From positions 1-61,484 of the forward strand of contig DBZL01000077.1 of NCBI GenBank assembly GCA_002311745.1: a DNA stretch of 61,484 nucleotides, in the 5' to 3' direction. Position numbers and translations under genes: made by a program. Of the stretch, positions 21,345-27,346 are shown one piece after another (position 1 is the first letter of the stretch; each line of letters starts with the position of its first letter). The notes beneath the pieces are model-generated. The model searched no databases, was not told the DNA's origin, and saw nothing but the letters and a program-made list of their open reading frames with translations. The DNA is from Phycisphaerales bacterium UBA1161. GTDB taxonomy: Bacteria; Planctomycetota; Phycisphaerae; Tepidisphaerales; Tepidisphaeraceae.

Positions 21345-21360
21345 ACCCAAAGTTGATGGG

Positions 21361-21434
21361 CATTTTTAGCCGCGTCGCGTGCGACGCGCGCCGCGGCGAG
21401 CCAAAGCGCGTCGCACGCGACGCGGCTAAAAATG
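21361..21434. repeat. perfect 28-base inverted repeat, bidirectional terminator candidate
   Basis: Arms 21361-21388 and 21407-21434 are exact reverse complements, with an 18-base GC-rich loop. The stem starts CATTTTTAGCCGCGTCGCG and ends in AAAAATG, so each strand would make a GC-rich hairpin followed by a run of U. It sits between the convergent glycosyltransferase and Rieske genes. Confidence 0.8.
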
Positions 21435-21443
21435 ACTCGGCTG

Positions 21444-21770
21444 CTAAAATATAGGCAAATCCGCCTGCACGAGGATCGGCTGCCCGTCGCGCGCCAACAG
21501 GCGCGTCGGATACGTCCGCACCGTCACGTGCGGCATGTCGCGCAGCTGGCCGCGCTTCAATCCAAAACTCCACTGGTGCCGCGGACAAACGGCCCGTCCA
21601 TCCACAATCTGGCCGTCGGCCAAACTTCCGCCCGCGTGCGGACAGGTGTTGTCCAGCGCGTAGACCTGCGCCTCGTGCAGAAACACCGCTAACCGAAACC
21701 CGTCGATCTCGACGTACTTACCACGCCCTTCGCTCAGCTCGTCAAGTTGGCACAGGCTCGTCCAAGACAT
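21444..21770 (-). CDS. Rieske [2Fe-2S] ferredoxin-like protein
   Basis: A 108-residue soluble Rieske protein resembling the NirD/biphenyl-dioxygenase ferredoxin group. The two cluster-binding boxes are CPHAGG (near residue 43) and CPRHQW (near residue 62). It would carry electrons to an oxygenase or reductase partner, but none is adjacent, so the partner is unknown. Length is typical for stand-alone Rieske ferredoxins. It is on the same strand as the kinase/ESCRT-like operon upstream but separated from it by a hairpin repeat, so probably is not part of it. Confidence 0.88.
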   Translation of the reverse strand: MSWTSLCQLDELSEGRGKYVEIDGFRLAVFLHEAQVYALDNTCPHAGGSLADGQIVDGRAVCPRHQWSFGLKRGQLRDMPHVTVRTYPTRLLARDGQPILVQADLPIF

Positions 21771-21793
21771 GAAAGAAAATGCTGAATCAGTGG

Positions 21794-21873
21794 CTAGTTG
21801 CTAGTTGCTAGTTGCTGGAAAAAGCGTGGCTTGGTTGTCTTAACTAGCAACTCGCAACCAGCAACTAGCAACT
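21794..21873. repeat. TAGTTGC hairpin repeat, copy 1
   Basis: Three direct copies of CTAGTTG at 21794-21818 pair with CCAGCAACTAGCAACT at 21858-21873; a third antiparallel copy lies near 21842-21857. It follows the last gene of the ESCRT-like operon and may end its transcript. A related element is at 45546-45605. Confidence 0.65.
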
Positions 21874-21877
21874 CTCG

Positions 21878-22486
21878 CTAGTCCTTTTGCTTGCCCGATC
21901 CCAATTCCTTGGCGATCTCGGATTCCAGCTCATCCAGCTTTCCCAATTCGGCCTTTTCGCCGGCCAGTACGTCCGCGGCGATCATGCGGTCGATCTCTTC
22001 ATCGCTGACCGATTCCGGGCTGGCCGAGGCAGGGGCGCCTGCGGCGGCCGCCTCCTCCATCGAATCCAGGAACAGCTCCATGCGCTCCTCCATGCTTCCG
22101 GCCTGCACCACCGCTCGCTCCCACTGCGCCTGCGTCTTGGTCAAATCCATCTCCCCAAAGGTGCGGCTGATCTCCTTGGCCATCAGGGCCATCGACTCGG
22201 CAAACTGCTGGCTGGCCTGCGCTTGCTGCTGGATCAGCATCGCGTTTTTGATGGAGAGCAGTTGCCGCTCCAGCATTTTCTTCACCGCCGCGGTCTTCTT
22301 CAGCGCCCCGCGGATGAACTGGTACTGGCCTTCATCGCCGATCTTGCGGGCATTCTGGGCGTTCTTGATGAAGTCGTCGGCGAATTTCTCCTGCTGGTGG
22401 ATGGACCGTTCGATGGCGCGCAGGCCCGCCTTGATCTTCATCTCTCGCTCGATGCGCCGCTCGTCTTTGCTTTTGAACAGGCCCAT
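21878..22486 (-). CDS. ESCRT-III/Snf7-like helical protein
   Basis: A 202-residue highly charged helical protein that resembles the ESCRT-III (Snf7/CHMP) fold family. Seen directly: a short N-terminal segment MGLFKSKDERR, a long basic helical hairpin (residues 10-90), a conserved-looking FGEMDLTKTQAQWERAV at about 110-126 that parallels the MDL.K motif of CHMP proteins, an acidic region with a Pro/Ala/Ser hinge (140-165) and a final acidic helix LDELESEIAKEL. The basic core plus acidic autoinhibitory tail is the ESCRT-III pattern. Known relatives polymerise on and remodel membranes. Assignment to the superfamily is inference from sequence pattern. The start at 22486 is 4 bases after the preceding stop. 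Confidence 0.6.
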   Translation of the reverse strand: MGLFKSKDERRIEREMKIKAGLRAIERSIHQQEKFADDFIKNAQNARKIGDEGQYQFIRGALKKTAAVKKMLERQLLSIKNAMLIQQQAQASQQFAESMALMAKEISRTFGEMDLTKTQAQWERAVVQAGSMEERMELFLDSMEEAAAAGAPASASPESVSDEEIDRMIAADVLAGEKAELGKLDELESEIAKELGSGKQKD

Positions 22487-22490
22487 GTTC

Positions 22491-23111
22491 TCAACCCTGC
22501 TGGTCCGCGGCCGCGCCATCCTGCTTGCGACGAACCGCCTGGTCCGCCGCCGCAAATCCCTGGTCCGCTTTGACCGACCCCTTGTCCATCTCGTTCCAGA
22601 TGTTCATCAGTTCCTGCCCCGCCTGCGTCAGGCCCGTCGCCGCCAGCGCCTCCTTGTCGGACTCGTGCCCGATCTCCAGGAGCATGTCCAGCCGCTGCTG
22701 GTACACGTCCTGCGAAACCGCGTCATCCTGGATCCACTGGCTGATGTTGGCCACGTCCTTGTCCGTCAGATTCAGCCGGCCGGTCGATTTGCCGCGCTCG
22801 CGGTTTTCCTTGATCATGCGCAATCGGCTGACGGTCAGCAGTTCCTTGCTGCGCAGCGTCAACTCGCGCGCCGCCATCAATTCCTCTTGGGCCTTGAGCT
22901 CGAAATTCTGCGCCAGCGCCTTGCGCAATTCCGCCGATTTCTGGCCGGCGCCTTGCTTAAAAATCTTCTGTTTCTCGCCCAGAATCTGCTCGATCCGCGC
23001 GAACAGCCGATCCCGTTGCTTGCTCAGCAGGATTTCCTGCTTGCGCAGCTCCTGGCGGCTCAGCTTGCTGAGCGTTTTGGCCCGGCCGAAAATTTTGTCG
23101 ATCAGGGCCAT
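22491..23111 (-). CDS. helical coiled-coil protein, possible ESCRT-III-like partner
   Basis: A 206-residue, almost entirely helical protein. Residues 1-105 form a strongly basic helical hairpin (ELRKQEILLSKQRDRLFARI, then an EEL/AREL region) like the core of ESCRT-III and PspA subunits. Residues 115-170 are acidic (NLTDKDVANISQWIQDD) and the tail is Ala/Gln-rich. No enzymatic motif is present. It sits between the Snf7-like gene and the 488-residue fusion with 4-base gaps on both sides, so the three products are very likely made together and may co-assemble. Family membership is weaker than for its neighbours and rests mainly on architecture and context. Confidence 0.5.
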   Translation of the reverse strand: MALIDKIFGRAKTLSKLSRQELRKQEILLSKQRDRLFARIEQILGEKQKIFKQGAGQKSAELRKALAQNFELKAQEELMAARELTLRSKELLTVSRLRMIKENRERGKSTGRLNLTDKDVANISQWIQDDAVSQDVYQQRLDMLLEIGHESDKEALAATGLTQAGQELMNIWNEMDKGSVKADQGFAAADQAVRRKQDGAAADQQG

Positions 23112-23115
23112 GGGA

Positions 23116-24582
23116 TTATGACGGTTCGGCTTCGCCGCGCTGCGGCTTGGGCGTCGGCGGAGCCTGCGGCTCTTTTTGCGGCTGCGGCGTTTTGGGCGCC
23201 TGGGCCGCCACAGGCGACGGGGCCGATGCCGGCGGGGCCGCCTGGTTTTGCATCAATTCATCATACACCGCCTGCTCTTCGGCGCTGAGCGAAGCGCCGG
23301 CGACGCCGGTGCCGATCGTGTCGGCCAATTCGCTGTCGGCCTCGAGTTGTGCCAGCACATCCTCGGCCGCGGCCGCATCCGCCGCCATCTCCTCGCTGTC
23401 CGGCAACTTCGCCGCCTTCCCCTGCTGTTGCAATTCCAGCGTGTGCAGGTGCGTCCCCACGATGTTGATCTGCTGATTGAGCACCGACAAGAGCTGCTGG
23501 CGACGGGCGATGTCCTTGCGAAACTGCACGAGCTGGCTGGCAATCCGCCGGCGCGTCAGCTCGCCGGAAGCCTCGGCGAACTGCTTGCGCAGATTCGCCT
23601 CCTTGTTTTCCAGACGCGCCATCTCTTCATAGCCGCGGTCGCGCTGCTGGCCCAGGTCGGCGCGGCGCTCGCTGAGCAGCGCGATTTTCTTGTCGACGTT
23701 GCCCTTGCGGGCAAAGAGGGTTTTGAGTCGCTCGATAAATGGCATAGTGACGCTTCCGCGCGCCGACAGGTCGGGCGGCGCGGAGCCTTCTTGAAACAGG
23801 ACCACTCGTCCACCCAGCCGCTTGGCCACCAGGCCGGCGGTCTGGCTGGCGTAGGATTTTAACTCGGTTTCGACCAATTGCAGAGGCAGGCGGGTCGCCG
23901 CCGCCACTTTTTCCGCCGCCACGCCGTCGGATGCCAGGTCCAGCCGGCTGGCGTCGATGGCCGCGCGGATCCGCGCCCGCTTTTGTTCATCCATCTCCGG
24001 ATCGAACAGATCGCCGACGAACGGCGTTTGCGGCGGCCCGGCGGCGGTCCAGCCCCCCGCGTCATGGGGCCAGATGAGGATGACCGTCCGGTCGCTGCTG
24101 CGGCCGACGGCGTCCAGGGCGTCGGCGGCAAAGCCGCTGGTGGACATCAACACCACCGTGGAGGGCACGCCGCGCAGCGGCGGCGGGATTTCCCCCAGGG
24201 CCTTGCTCAGTTCCGCCGCCGTCAACGGCCCGGCCGCCTGGCCGCCGACCAGCGCCCGCCACGGCGATCGGCACGTGACCCACAGCCGCCCCACCGGCGC
24301 CTTGCCGCCCCACCATCTTTTTTTCGACAAACCCACATCCAGCGTTCGCCCCACCGGCATCTTCGCCTGCAGCTCCCGATCGGGGCGATTCATTTCGCTC
24401 ATCAGCCGCTTGAGGTCCACGCCGCGGTCGTTGCGGTTGACGTGGCGCAGAAGCAAGGCCGGCGGCCGCCGCCCCAGCGTCGTGTCGATGCGCAGACGCT
24501 CATCGCCGATCAATTGCTCGACGTGGCGCATGAACTGCTCTTCAAGACGCTGATGGACGCTGGGATCGGAACTAAGGCTCAT
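23116..24582 (-). CDS. unknown alpha/beta domain + winged-helix-like + Snf7-like coiled-coil fusion
   Basis: A 488-residue three-part protein. Residues about 1-200 are an alpha/beta region that includes VPSTVVLMSTSGFAA and DRTVILIWPHD strands; no family recognised. Residues about 205-268 look like a winged helix (ASRLDLASDGVAAEKVAAAT then a hydrophobic VVLFQEG strand). Residues 281-430 are a charged helical domain whose pattern (ELTRRRIASQLVQFRKDIAR, then LNQQINIVGTHLHTLE, then KLPDSEEMA) resembles ESCRT-III cores. A Pro/Ala-rich tail ends it. ESCRT-III-related proteins with a winged helix are known in archaea and eukaryotes (CdvB, CHMP7/ESCRT-II), so this fusion is notable. Its start lies inside the small upstream ORF. 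Confidence 0.55.
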   Translation of the reverse strand: MSLSSDPSVHQRLEEQFMRHVEQLIGDERLRIDTTLGRRPPALLLRHVNRNDRGVDLKRLMSEMNRPDRELQAKMPVGRTLDVGLSKKRWWGGKAPVGRLWVTCRSPWRALVGGQAAGPLTAAELSKALGEIPPPLRGVPSTVVLMSTSGFAADALDAVGRSSDRTVILIWPHDAGGWTAAGPPQTPFVGDLFDPEMDEQKRARIRAAIDASRLDLASDGVAAEKVAAATRLPLQLVETELKSYASQTAGLVAKRLGGRVVLFQEGSAPPDLSARGSVTMPFIERLKTLFARKGNVDKKIALLSERRADLGQQRDRGYEEMARLENKEANLRKQFAEASGELTRRRIASQLVQFRKDIARRQQLLSVLNQQINIVGTHLHTLELQQQGKAAKLPDSEEMAADAAAAEDVLAQLEADSELADTIGTGVAGASLSAEEQAVYDELMQNQAAPPASAPSPVAAQAPKTPQPQKEPQAPPTPKPQRGEAEPS

Positions 24583-24682
24583 GATTGGCTACGGATCCCC
24601 GCAGCTTCCAAAGCAACACCGCGCCGGCCAGCCCACACCAAATCCATCCAATGACAGAGAGAATAAGATAAATCTTGCTCAC
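24572..24682 (-). CDS. 36-residue single-pass membrane protein
   Basis: A small gene. It begins at GTG 24682, preceded by GGGAGG 4-5 bases away, and encodes a 36-residue peptide with one transmembrane helix (YLILSVIGWIWCGLAGAVLL) followed by a positive tail (KLRGS). Its stop overlaps the first codons of the 488-residue gene by 11 bases, the layout expected for translational coupling. The upstream zinc-ribbon gene stops 10 bases before it. A peptide of this kind could anchor or regulate the helical proteins at the membrane. Existence is supported by ribosome site, hydrophobicity and placement; function is unknown. Confidence 0.6.
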   Translation of the reverse strand: MSKIYLILSVIGWIWCGLAGAVLLWKLRGSVANHEP

Positions 24683-24692
24683 CCGCCTCCCA

Positions 24693-24974
24693 TCAGGCCG
24701 CGACGCGCCATCGTGACGACACGCGCAGGGGCGTACCACATCGGCGGCAGAAATTCGCCGCCGGCGGATTGGACGCCCCGCAGCGGAAGCGAGGGCAGCG
24801 GTTTGGCGGTCCCGACCCGCCGCCGCGCCCGATCAGCCCCAGCAGTCGCAAAATCCCGCGCAGCACCGCCCAGACCAGCCAGCCCAAGAACAGGACCCAG
24901 GCCACGATCAACAGGGCCACCAGAAACAGAACATGCAGCACAAAACTGGCGATCATGGCAAGCTCATCTCCCAA
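24693..24974 (-). CDS. small membrane protein with C-terminal zinc ribbon
   Basis: A 93-residue protein with one long or two short transmembrane segments (residues 7-48, very rich in Leu, Val, Trp) and a C-terminal zinc ribbon CPRFRCG...NFCRRCG (residues about 60-81). The same ribbon type ends the Ser/Thr kinase encoded just upstream, suggesting that the two ribbons interact or bind a common partner. It lies 31 bases after the kinase gene and 10 bases before the 36-residue membrane peptide, inside the operon. No family name is assigned. Confidence 0.65.
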   Translation of the reverse strand: MGDELAMIASFVLHVLFLVALLIVAWVLFLGWLVWAVLRGILRLLGLIGRGGGSGPPNRCPRFRCGASNPPAANFCRRCGTPLRVSSRWRVAA

Positions 24975-25005
24975 CCGCGCATCGGCGCCGCCGCTTCAGC
25001 GGCGA

Positions 25006-26091
25006 TCAAACACTCACCGCCGCAGGCGTCAGCGCTTCGCCGCAAAAAATGCAGTGGCGGTCGTACACGTCCGGATACGCTCCACAGCGCGGGCAGCGCC
25101 GCACCACCGGCACCAGTTGAACGCCGCAGTGCATGCAAAACTGATCCCGCGCATCCACCTGTTTTCGGCAGTGCGGGCAGGCGATGGACGCGGCGGCGGG
25201 CCGTTGCGGATACGGCACGTATCGCGGCGGCAGCGGCGGCGGACGCACCGGAAGCGTCGGCCCCGCAGCCGGCGAGGCCAGTGACAACGCCGACAAAAAT
25301 TCATCCGCCGAGGCAAATCGCTTGTCCAACCGCGCGTAGCTGCGGCGAAATACGTCGTCCAGCGCCGCCGGCACCGAGCGGTTCCGATCGCTGGGGACCT
25401 CCGTCCCCGCCGGGCGCTCGCCCGTCAGCAGCTCGTACAGCACCACGCCGCACGCGTACAGATCGGCCCTGGCATCGCCACCGTCGCCCTGCCGCTGTTC
25501 CGGGGCCATGTAGTCGAGGGTTCCGGCGATTTGCCGCCCCGTCGGGCTGGACAGCGAAGCCGAAAAGGCGATCGAATTTCCCGCGGCGCGTCCATCCGCC
25601 CGACCAAGCCCAAAATCCGTCAACTTCACCACGCCCTCAACGCCAAACCCCTCTTTCCACGCCCGCTCGTGCACCAAGACGTTTTCCGGCTTGATGTCGC
25701 GGTGGATGACGCCGTGCTCGTGGGCGAATTTCAGTCCGGTTAAGACCTGCTTGAGGATGGCCAGCGCATCGGCAATGGAGACGGAGCGGTTTGGGATCAG
25801 CGGCCGCAAGCTCGTGCCGGGAACGTATTCCATCGTCAGATACGGCACCGGGGCATACGGATCAAACCCAATGGCCCGCACAATGTTGGGATGGACTAAG
25901 CCATGCAGCGCCGCCCCTTCGCGTTGCAAATCGCGCAGATATTGCGGATCGGCCGGGAACTTGATGGCCACAAGCTGGTCGGTCCACACGTGATGGTGTG
26001 CCCGCCAAACCTCGCCGAACGCCCCACCCCCGATACGCTCTTGAAGGACGTATTCGCCAATCCTCTGCTCTGCCTGGACCATGCTTCCCAT
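25006..26091 (-). CDS. Hanks-type Ser/Thr protein kinase with double zinc ribbon
   Basis: A 361-residue soluble protein kinase. Catalytic features are complete: glycine loop IGGGAFGEVWRA, lysine in VAIKFP, HRDIKPEN catalytic loop, DFGLGRAD metal loop and the APEQRQGD segment. Residues about 255-290 are a Pro-rich linker and the last 70 residues carry two zinc ribbons (CPHC...CMHCG and CPRCG...CIFCG). No transmembrane segment, unlike PknB-type kinases. It is second in the operon (6 bases after the 130-residue membrane protein) and is the likely regulatory input for the ESCRT-like helical proteins. ATG 26091 and ATG 26082 are both possible starts. Confidence 0.92.
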   Translation of the reverse strand: MGSMVQAEQRIGEYVLQERIGGGAFGEVWRAHHHVWTDQLVAIKFPADPQYLRDLQREGAALHGLVHPNIVRAIGFDPYAPVPYLTMEYVPGTSLRPLIPNRSVSIADALAILKQVLTGLKFAHEHGVIHRDIKPENVLVHERAWKEGFGVEGVVKLTDFGLGRADGRAAGNSIAFSASLSSPTGRQIAGTLDYMAPEQRQGDGGDARADLYACGVVLYELLTGERPAGTEVPSDRNRSVPAALDDVFRRSYARLDKRFASADEFLSALSLASPAAGPTLPVRPPPLPPRYVPYPQRPAAASIACPHCRKQVDARDQFCMHCGVQLVPVVRRCPRCGAYPDVYDRHCIFCGEALTPAAVSV

Positions 26092-26097
26092 GCTCAG

Positions 26098-26490
26098 CTA
26101 CTCCAGTATTTCCGCGATCCAGTCGCAGATCAGCAGATTATAAACGCCGGCCACCAGGGTTCCCAAAGCCACAAACGTCCAGGCCGTGACCGTGGGCAGA
26201 TGCCAGTGGAACAGCCACGCCAAAAGTGCCGCTTCCGCCAGCGTGTACGCCCCGACCAGCACGGCGCCGGCCAAGTTGCTCTCCAGCCGGGCCACGCGCC
26301 CGATGATCGGCAGCGACGCCCAGGGCCACAGCAGCACCACCCCCACCCACAGCCCAATCCGCTCTGTACCGCTAAGCAGTGCCGCGCGCGTCGCGGGATC
26401 CATCTGCCACCACGAAATCGCCCCGGCAATGACCGCCAAGACGGTCAGCGCAGTCACGATCTTGCCCGTGACGCTCTTGAGCCATTCCAT
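26098..26490 (-). CDS. four-helix membrane protein, first gene of the kinase/ESCRT-like operon
   Basis: A 130-residue protein with four predicted transmembrane helices (about 10-28, 43-62, 70-95, 100-122) and a single short cytoplasmic start. No family recognised. It is the first gene of the minus-strand operon; on the minus strand TAGAAT (26505 to 26500) ends 9 bases before the ATG, so the operon's message would have almost no leader. The kinase gene follows after 6 bases. A membrane partner or sensor for the kinase is plausible (inference). Confidence 0.65.
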   Translation of the reverse strand: MEWLKSVTGKIVTALTVLAVIAGAISWWQMDPATRAALLSGTERIGLWVGVVLLWPWASLPIIGRVARLESNLAGAVLVGAYTLAEAALLAWLFHWHLPTVTAWTFVALGTLVAGVYNLLICDWIAEILE

Positions 26491-26599: not shown

Positions 26600-27346
26600 A
26601 TGAACCGCCTGATTCGCAAAGTGCGGCGATTCGATTTCCCGCCCGGGCGGATCATCGCCGGCAAATACGTCATCCAGCGCATGCTCGGAAGTGGCTGGGA
26701 GGGCGAGGTTTATGGCATTGTCGAGCGCAGCACCGGCATCCGCCGCGCCGCCAAATTCTATTATCCCCACCGCGATCCCACCGGCAAAGCCGCCATCGCC
26801 TACGCCCGCAAGCTCGACGCCCTGCGCCACTGTCCTATCCTCATGCAGTACCATCACCAGGAAATCGCCTACGTGCGCCGGCGAAAGGTCATCGTCGTCA
26901 TCAGCGAATTGATCGAAGGCCAAAAGCTCGGCGAATTCCTCCAGGAGCAGCACGGCCATCGCCTCAGCACCTTCGAGGCCATGCACGTGCTGTACATCCT
27001 GGCCAAAGGCATCGCGCCCATCCACGCCCGCGGCGAATACCACGGCGACATCCACGAGGACAACATCATGATCCGCCGCCAGGGCATCGGATTCGAGCTC
27101 AAGTTGCTGGACTTTTTCGACCTCGGCCGGCCCACCCGCGCCAAAATCCAAAAAGACGTGCTCAACCTCGTCCAGGTGTTCTACATTCTGGTCGGCGGAC
27201 GACCGCGCTACGCCGAGCAACCGCGAGTAGTCAAGGATATCGTGCGCGGGCTAAAGGATTCGCTGATCCTGGCCCGCTTCTGCACCGCCGGCGACATCCA
27301 GCGCCACCTGGAAACCCTCCAATGGAATGGATCCGGAGGGAAATGA
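26600..27346 (+). CDS. degenerate protein-kinase-like protein
   Basis: A 248-residue protein of the protein-kinase fold. The N lobe has GSGWEGEVYG as a glycine loop and the lysine in RRAAKFYY; the catalytic loop reads YHGDIHEDNI (HGD in place of HRD, with the usual D and N), while the metal loop is LLDFFD, so the glycine of DFG is replaced. APE and the lower C lobe are short. This could be an atypical active kinase of the RIO/lipopolysaccharide-kinase type or a pseudokinase. It is divergent from the operon that contains the canonical kinase and ESCRT-like proteins and is followed by a PilZ gene. Confidence 0.8.
   Translation: MNRLIRKVRRFDFPPGRIIAGKYVIQRMLGSGWEGEVYGIVERSTGIRRAAKFYYPHRDPTGKAAIAYARKLDALRHCPILMQYHHQEIAYVRRRKVIVVISELIEGQKLGEFLQEQHGHRLSTFEAMHVLYILAKGIAPIHARGEYHGDIHEDNIMIRRQGIGFELKLLDFFDLGRPTRAKIQKDVLNLVQVFYILVGGRPRYAEQPRVVKDIVRGLKDSLILARFCTAGDIQRHLETLQWNGSGGK

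Follow-up and report, generated by a model that had tools for sequence, protein, structure and literature searches.

The closest described systems belong to the ESCRT-III (endosomal sorting complex required for transport III) superfamily, which also includes the bacterial proteins PspA and Vipp1 (PMC8281802). ESCRT systems that contain Vps4 are described as confined to archaea and eukaryotes, and some archaeal ESCRT loci carry Ser/Thr kinases (Makarova et al. 2024, PMC10936438). A 2023 review states that bacteria have no clear Vps4 homologue, and presents the Cdv system as a precedent for an ESCRT division ring in some archaea (PMC7615534). We analyzed an operon in a 61,484-nucleotide stretch of DNA (contig DBZL01000077.1, hereafter the window, meaning the whole stretch) from Phycisphaerales bacterium UBA1161, a member of the family Tepidisphaeraceae in the phylum Planctomycetota. 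Three isolates from its order, Tepidisphaerales, are named in the literature (PMC11266412). The last of the seven genes in this operon encodes a protein, E1, whose family is well supported as ESCRT-III/Snf7-like. Together with an ATPase that combines an MIT-like N-terminus with an AAA cassette, the operon probably constitutes a bacterial ESCRT-III/MIT-AAA membrane-remodelling system. Planctomycetes are known for unusual membranes.

Titles and abstract openings yielded no report of such a system in planctomycetes or other bacteria; subscription papers are mostly not covered by this search, and an earlier description is possible.

The E1 family and its helical partners

A database search finds 2561 relatives of E1 at E ≤ 0.01. 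The best 120 of these, leaving aside the window's own entry, are 81–87% identical to it, and the few that are named belong to Tepidisphaeraceae. E1 is present in 54 of 294 Planctomycetota genomes. In the same genomes, the Pfam family Snf7 (PF03357, curated cut-off 27.3 bits) gives 43 matches in 42 genomes at E ≤ 0.01, of which 34 fall on the E1 gene and nine elsewhere. The curated cut-off is exceeded in four genomes, and all four matches are the E1 gene. When 34 diverse E1 members were scanned as single sequences at E ≤ 1, Snf7 was matched by 29 and the next family by four. A profile of E1 searched against the whole PDB at E ≤ 10 found SNF7, CHMP3 and CHMP2A in nine of ten matches (best E 8.9e-4), and a second such search returned four matches, all of them ESCRT-III (best E 0.03).

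The predicted structure of E1 (pLDDT, a predicted local distance difference test score, of 73) has helices at residues 7–49, 52–111, 115–128, 132–148 and 162–201. This is the ESCRT-III layout of a long α1–α2 hairpin followed by α3–α5, and is the fold that an original prediction, made from the letters of the window, had expected for this product. With the model as query, each of the first 23 Foldseek rows is a member of the ESCRT-III superfamily (best E 2.1e-3); ranks 1–8 are eukaryotic and Asgard ESCRT-III proteins, and PspA and Vipp1 appear from rank 9. A basic N-terminal half and an acidic C-terminal half occur in all 62 aligned E1 rows.

The C-terminal tail contains a block resembling EIDRMI in 66 of 77 distinct family members (shuffled mean 0.54). 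A broader pattern of the MIM1 (MIT-interacting motif 1) type, L..[RKE]L..L[KR], is found in 27 of the 77 (shuffled mean 0.09). A relaxed MIM1-like pattern is matched by five members and the strict one by none. The tail of the window's E1 matches none of the MIM1-type patterns, the broader one being judged by eye.

The original prediction had assigned all three helical products of the operon (E1, E2 and E3) to ESCRT-III. This assignment holds for the E1 family, is only suggested for the hairpin of E3 and lacks sequence support for E2. Judged by sequence, neither E2 nor E3 is an ESCRT-III protein. Snf7 is absent among the best 25 of 26 families for 36 E2 members, and profile comparison detects no relation of E1 to E2 or the E3 hairpin (0.2% and 0.3%). 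E2 and the E3 hairpin are related to each other (hhalign, 93%), and the basic-then-acidic arrangement of halves holds in all 36 E2 rows. E3 is predicted to consist of an N-terminal α/β part (residues 7–192), a winged helix (198–264), a hairpin (296–386) and two further helices (396–424 and 434–448). Foldseek rows for this model include CdvB2, CdvB, Vipp1 and Asgard ESCRT-IIIB alongside unrelated proteins, and BAR domains were level with CdvB2 when the hairpin was structurally realigned. The original prediction missed two features: the winged helix of E3 and, beyond the limits of the window, the Vps4-like ATPase.

The alignments behind these statements contain the window's E1 together with 33 of 40 relatives (A1), 57 of 80 E1 proteins from named loci plus four of the 120 database proteins and the window (A5), 38 of 44 E3 proteins (A6), and 35 of 69 E2-profile matches plus the window (A7). 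Left out of A1 were near-duplicates (L054, L057, L064, L065), a truncated sequence (L069) and two with an internal stop (L073, L075).

Conservation of the operon and the associated ATPase

In named GTDB genomes, a single scan detected an encoded E1 relative at 107 loci, and 80 of these were kept. Their titles name Planctomycetota and its subgroups, one Candidatus Kuenenia and, in two cases, only a "bacterium". Sorted by E1 identity, the loci form the window's group (n = 11, at least 63%), a middle group (n = 38, 51–64%) and a distant group (n = 31, 38–46%). L106 (64%) was counted with the middle group and L107 (63%) with that of the window, because the two genomes correspond to separate families in the class draw. 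Neighbour counts use only loci with sufficient flank.

Conservation of the operon elsewhere, whose absence the original prediction had named as a refuting outcome, holds in these named genomes. In the middle group, where 24 of 38 titles read Phycisphaerae or Phycisphaerales, E1 is preceded by E2 (33/34), E3 (30/31), the kinase (30/31), the E7 family (27/29) and E5 (28/31), and is followed by an AAA ATPase (24/30) and a protein of about 600 aa, c5 (24/30). The window's group has E2 in 9/9, E3 in 7/7, the kinase in 6/7, E7 in 5/6 and E5 in 5/7, with no AAA ATPase downstream of E1 (0/6). Distant loci have an AAA gene on either side of E1 (20/20) and upstream E3-type genes (23/23); E2 is found in 8/26 and an upstream kinase in 1/23. 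A same-strand kinase gene lies downstream in 6 of the 31 distant loci, counted with no flank filter (L143, L146, L151, L153, L155, L169). The upstream kinase is therefore mainly a trait of the window's and middle groups. Pairing with an AAA ATPase is broader than pairing with the upstream kinase, yet in the window's group no such gene adjoins E1. The E1 cluster is more than a chance arrangement, because E1 has its 2561 relatives and the gene order is kept in named genomes.

The c5 proteins, encoded after the ATPase, have about 600–630 aa and weak β-propeller matches below the cut-off. The window's genome contains a distant c5 relative (22% identity, E 1.5e-15).

Among 198 genomes of the class Phycisphaerae, E1 occurs in 53, including 20 of 26 genomes that belong to the family of the window, and ATPase matches above 500 bits occur in 51. 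Both genes are present in 49 genomes, E1 only in four, the ATPase only in two and neither in 143 (Fisher p = 4e-39, shared ancestry ignored). Five of 56 ATPase genomes, with matches of at most 349 bits and all without E1, were dropped from this count; including them gives 49/4/7/138. The two genes share a contig and lie no more than 6 kb apart in 26 of these 49 class genomes and in 0 of 16 from the window's family, so the association in this family is more than simple linkage. In the draw of 294 genomes from the phylum, the corresponding numbers are 32/22/4/236; thus 32 of 36 genomes with the downstream-type ATPase also carry E1. The 22 genomes counted as E1 only have no downstream-type match at E ≤ 1e-90, and some of them carry the upstream type.

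These two types, found upstream and downstream of E1, are proteins of about 360–410 aa with an N-terminal region that looks helical, one AAA cassette (motifs GPPGTGKT and FIDE or FLDE) and a C-terminal region. The copy in the window's genome is of the downstream type, is located on another contig, and has GPPGTGKT and FIDE, i.e., a single AAA cassette with intact Walker motifs. The Walker-motif columns are invariant in alignment A4, which contains 30 of 34 downstream-type ATPases (A2 contains 25 of the 34, and A8 contains 24 of the 30 in A4). Alignment A3 contains 19 of 23 sequences sorted as upstream type, and one of the 23 (L122) was missorted.

The N-terminal profile of the upstream type finds the MIT domains of VPS4A/B (SKD1) as the eight best of 15 PDB matches (E 0.002–0.053), with Pfam MIT matched by only one of 19 single sequences. 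PDB matches of the downstream-type N-terminal profile are mostly TPR and designed proteins, with one chitin synthase fragment; this profile aligns to that of the upstream type. Vps4_C is matched at E ≤ 1 by 29 of 30 downstream-type members, some above the cut-off (21.3 bits), and the copy in the window's genome scores 12.9 bits, below it. Vps4_C is absent among the best 25 of 26 families for the FtsH of the same genome. Given that p97 also aligns to the Vps4_C region, this feature may not be unique to Vps4. The AAA core of the downstream type has its best PDB scores with p97/Cdc48; over the C-terminal part, katanin scores about as well as single p97 domains do. The ATPase is called Vps4-like here for its architecture and partnership, and the term does not imply orthology.

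A more compact arrangement occurs at three loci (L176, L177, L178), in which a different ESCRT-III-like gene immediately precedes a gene for a MIT-like AAA protein and overlaps it by a few bases. Two of these ESCRT-III-like proteins score 23.0 and 26.6 bits against Snf7, below its cut-off, and the three AAA partners score 18.6 to 24.9 bits against Vps4_C. Among the 120 listed relatives of one compact ATPase, the few with a named organism are mostly from metagenome-assembled genomes (MAGs) and represent Phycisphaerae, Sedimentisphaerales, Hydrogenedentes, Verrucomicrobiota, Thermodesulfobacteriota and Dongiaceae. Since these represent several phyla, the compact module may extend beyond planctomycetes.

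Genes of the operon and adjoining features

The genes occupy positions 26490–21878, in the order E7 to E1, on a single strand (Table 1). They are tightly packed, with intergenic distances of 6, 49, 10, −11, 4 and 4 nt. The sequence confirms the minus-strand cluster with gaps or overlaps of a few bases that was originally described. Its count of eight genes is correct only if the Rieske gene was meant; otherwise it is a miscount, as seven genes were found and its own list also has seven. The predicted kinase with two zinc ribbons is E6, which matches Pkinase (E 1.5e-40), has the motifs HRDIKPEN and DFG, and carries the double zinc ribbon at residues 305–351. A basic-then-acidic pattern had been noted in the three helical products, and the net charges of successive halves agree with it: +9/−14 in E1, +13/−8 in E2 and +8/−11 in the hairpin and tail of E3. 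The stretch likened to the MDL.K region, FGEMDLTKTQAQWERAV, was located in E1.

Table 1. Coordinates of the operon genes, neighbouring features and related loci
Feature	Sequence	Positions	Strand	Size	Description
E7	window	26098-26490	minus	130 aa	short hydrophobic protein
E6	window	25006-26091	minus	361 aa	Ser/Thr protein kinase with C-terminal double zinc ribbon
E5	window	24693-24956	minus	87 aa from ATG (93 aa from TTG)	hydrophobic N-terminus and zinc ribbon
E4	window	24572-24682	minus	36 aa	peptide, GTG start
E3	window	23116-24582	minus	488 aa	predicted α/β part, winged helix and helical hairpin
E2	window	22491-23111	minus	206 aa	helical protein related to E3 hairpin, no Snf7 match seen
E1	window	21878-22486	minus	202 aa	ESCRT-III/Snf7-like protein
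Inverted repeats	window	~21790-21875			possible terminator or REP-like element
Rieske gene	window	21444-21770	minus		Rieske [2Fe-2S] protein
Inverted repeat	window	~21360-21432			GC-rich, possible terminator or REP-like element
Kinase-like gene	window	26600-27346	plus		divergent from the operon
ATPase	window's genome (G000), contig C33	14088-15197			downstream-type MIT-like AAA ATPase
c5 relative	window's genome (G000), contig C25	4654-6057			distant relative of c5
c5	L110	11899-13692			protein encoded after the ATPase
Compact pair	L176	up to 2652			ESCRT-III-like protein
Compact pair	L176	2649-3785			AAA protein
Compact pair	L177	3855-4520			ESCRT-III-like protein
Compact pair	L177	4517-5650			AAA protein
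Compact pair	L178	4625-5299			ESCRT-III-like protein
Compact pair	L178	5296-6519			AAA protein

Five E7 relatives from outside the class have lengths of 284–308 aa. The zinc ribbon of E5, scanned in the TTG-start version, matches PF13240 with 28.5 bits (cut-off 25). Profile matches to E4 are limited to four loci, the window being one of them.

The Rieske gene (PF00355, 67.3 bits) begins 107 nt downstream of E1 on the same strand. Runs of inverted repeats (GTTGCTAGTTGC.../GCAACTAGCAAC) were seen by eye downstream of E1, as was a GC-rich inverted repeat further on; either could be a terminator or resemble a repetitive extragenic palindromic (REP) element. A second kinase-like gene adjoins the other end of the operon, and two other loci (L096 and L102) have a minus-strand match to the kinase profile at the equivalent place.

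Alternative explanations and comparison with known systems

There is only a small chance that the operon is a lineage-specific version of the PspA/Vipp1 stress system already known in bacteria. PspA and Vipp1 share the superfamily (PMC8281802) and appear in the Foldseek list for E1, but eight eukaryotic and Asgard proteins rank ahead of them. Neither PDB profile search with E1 returned a PspA or Vipp1 chain at E ≤ 10. PspA_IM30 (PF04012) has no match to the window's E1 at E ≤ 5, and is absent among the best 25 of 49 families for the 34 E1 members. Moreover, the associated ATPase is of the MIT-AAA type. PspA was not found in the window's genome, which is 79.5% complete. A different concern is that the window's own E1 scores 7.3 bits against Snf7, which is under the cut-off and weighs against an ESCRT-III identity; membership therefore rests on the family. 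This low score, the helical composition and the unrelated coiled coils that appear from rank 11 of the VIA rows would also suit an unrelated coiled-coil scaffold, resembling ESCRT-III only through its long charged helices. Such a scaffold is very unlikely, given that none of ten reversed sequences (from the 34 E1 members) matches Snf7, that the equally helical and charged E2 family lacks Snf7 among the families listed, and that an unbiased PDB profile search recovers hardly anything but ESCRT-III.

The same machinery could instead serve cell division, with an ESCRT ring in place of an FtsZ ring, as with Cdv in some archaea (PMC7615534). FtsZ exceeds its cut-off in none of the 294 genomes from the phylum (ten have weaker matches), and was not found in the incomplete genome of the window. 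However, 145 of the 198 class genomes have no E1 match, and the operon is therefore not the general divisome of these bacteria, which nearly lack FtsZ. We consider this explanation unlikely, as is any general role of the operon in division. We favour remodelling or repair of the envelope over a general part in cell division, since E1 is missing from most relatives in the class and FtsZ is nearly absent from the phylum. Contaminated assemblies, or genes acquired from archaea only very recently, could be suspected from the published restriction of Vps4-containing ESCRT to archaea and eukaryotes (PMC10936438), but this origin is extremely unlikely. Besides many MAGs, the genes occur in a chromosome record of 3.8 Mb (CP070718.1, L118) and on a 7.19-Mb single contig from the window's family (G330), and they exhibit graded divergence (31–87% identity) with conserved local gene order.

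The membrane-remodelling system that we favour draws on four computed results, namely the family to which E1 belongs, the order of the genes, the joint occurrence of E1 and the ATPase, and the predicted folds. It might work as follows. E1 would be the polymer-forming ESCRT-III subunit, whose basic two-helix core could bind acidic lipids of the inner membrane and polymerize, and whose acidic C-terminal arm may keep it autoinhibited. E3, with its winged helix and hairpin, and E2 could nucleate the polymer or assemble into it. The products encoded upstream, namely a zinc-ribbon kinase and small membrane proteins, probably set the time or place at which assembly starts; control of remodelling by the kinase is plausible, judging from gene order alone. 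The MIT-AAA ATPase would grip the C-terminal helix of E1 and extract subunits through its pore, and this extraction could drive remodelling or scission of the inner membrane.

The broader proposal, that Planctomycetota, along with compact counterparts in other phyla, possess a full ESCRT-III/MIT-AAA membrane-scission machine native to bacteria, has in our view an even chance of being correct. If so, ATPase-driven ESCRT is no archaeal-eukaryotic invention, and either predates the split or crossed domains early; bacteria would also have a route to remodelling internal membranes. The published view that bacteria lack Vps4 or ESCRT systems containing it would be overturned by a conserved bacterial operon in which ESCRT-III is combined with a kinase and a partner bearing a winged helix, and which is inherited together with a MIT-AAA ATPase. 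Planctomycetes, with FtsZ nearly absent from the sampled genomes, would gain a concrete and testable candidate for membrane remodelling.

E1 resembles the eukaryotic ESCRT-III proteins SNF7/CHMP4, CHMP3 and CHMP2A in helix layout, charge asymmetry, Snf7 match and, at the C-terminus, an acidic arm containing a conserved block. The associated ATPase resembles VPS4 in its single AAA cassette, Vps4_C match and putatively MIT-like N-terminus. Unlike the eukaryotic system, this one has a bacterial host, two helical partners without sequence relation to E1, an operon with a zinc-ribbon kinase and small membrane proteins, and, in the window's family, an unlinked ATPase. With bacterial PspA/Vipp1 it has in common the fold at the superfamily level and a proposed membrane role, but the sequence profiles are unconnected to E1, and the MIT-AAA ATPase and multi-gene operon set it apart. 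Archaeal Cdv/ESCRT loci likewise combine genes for ESCRT-III, winged-helix proteins, Ser/Thr kinases and an ATPase of the Vps4 type, whereas in this class the winged helix forms one protein, E3, with a helical hairpin. CHMP7 consists of winged helices fused to ESCRT-III. By this general description of CHMP7, E3 is similar in that a winged helix and a helical hairpin are predicted within one chain, but has an additional predicted N-terminal α/β domain.

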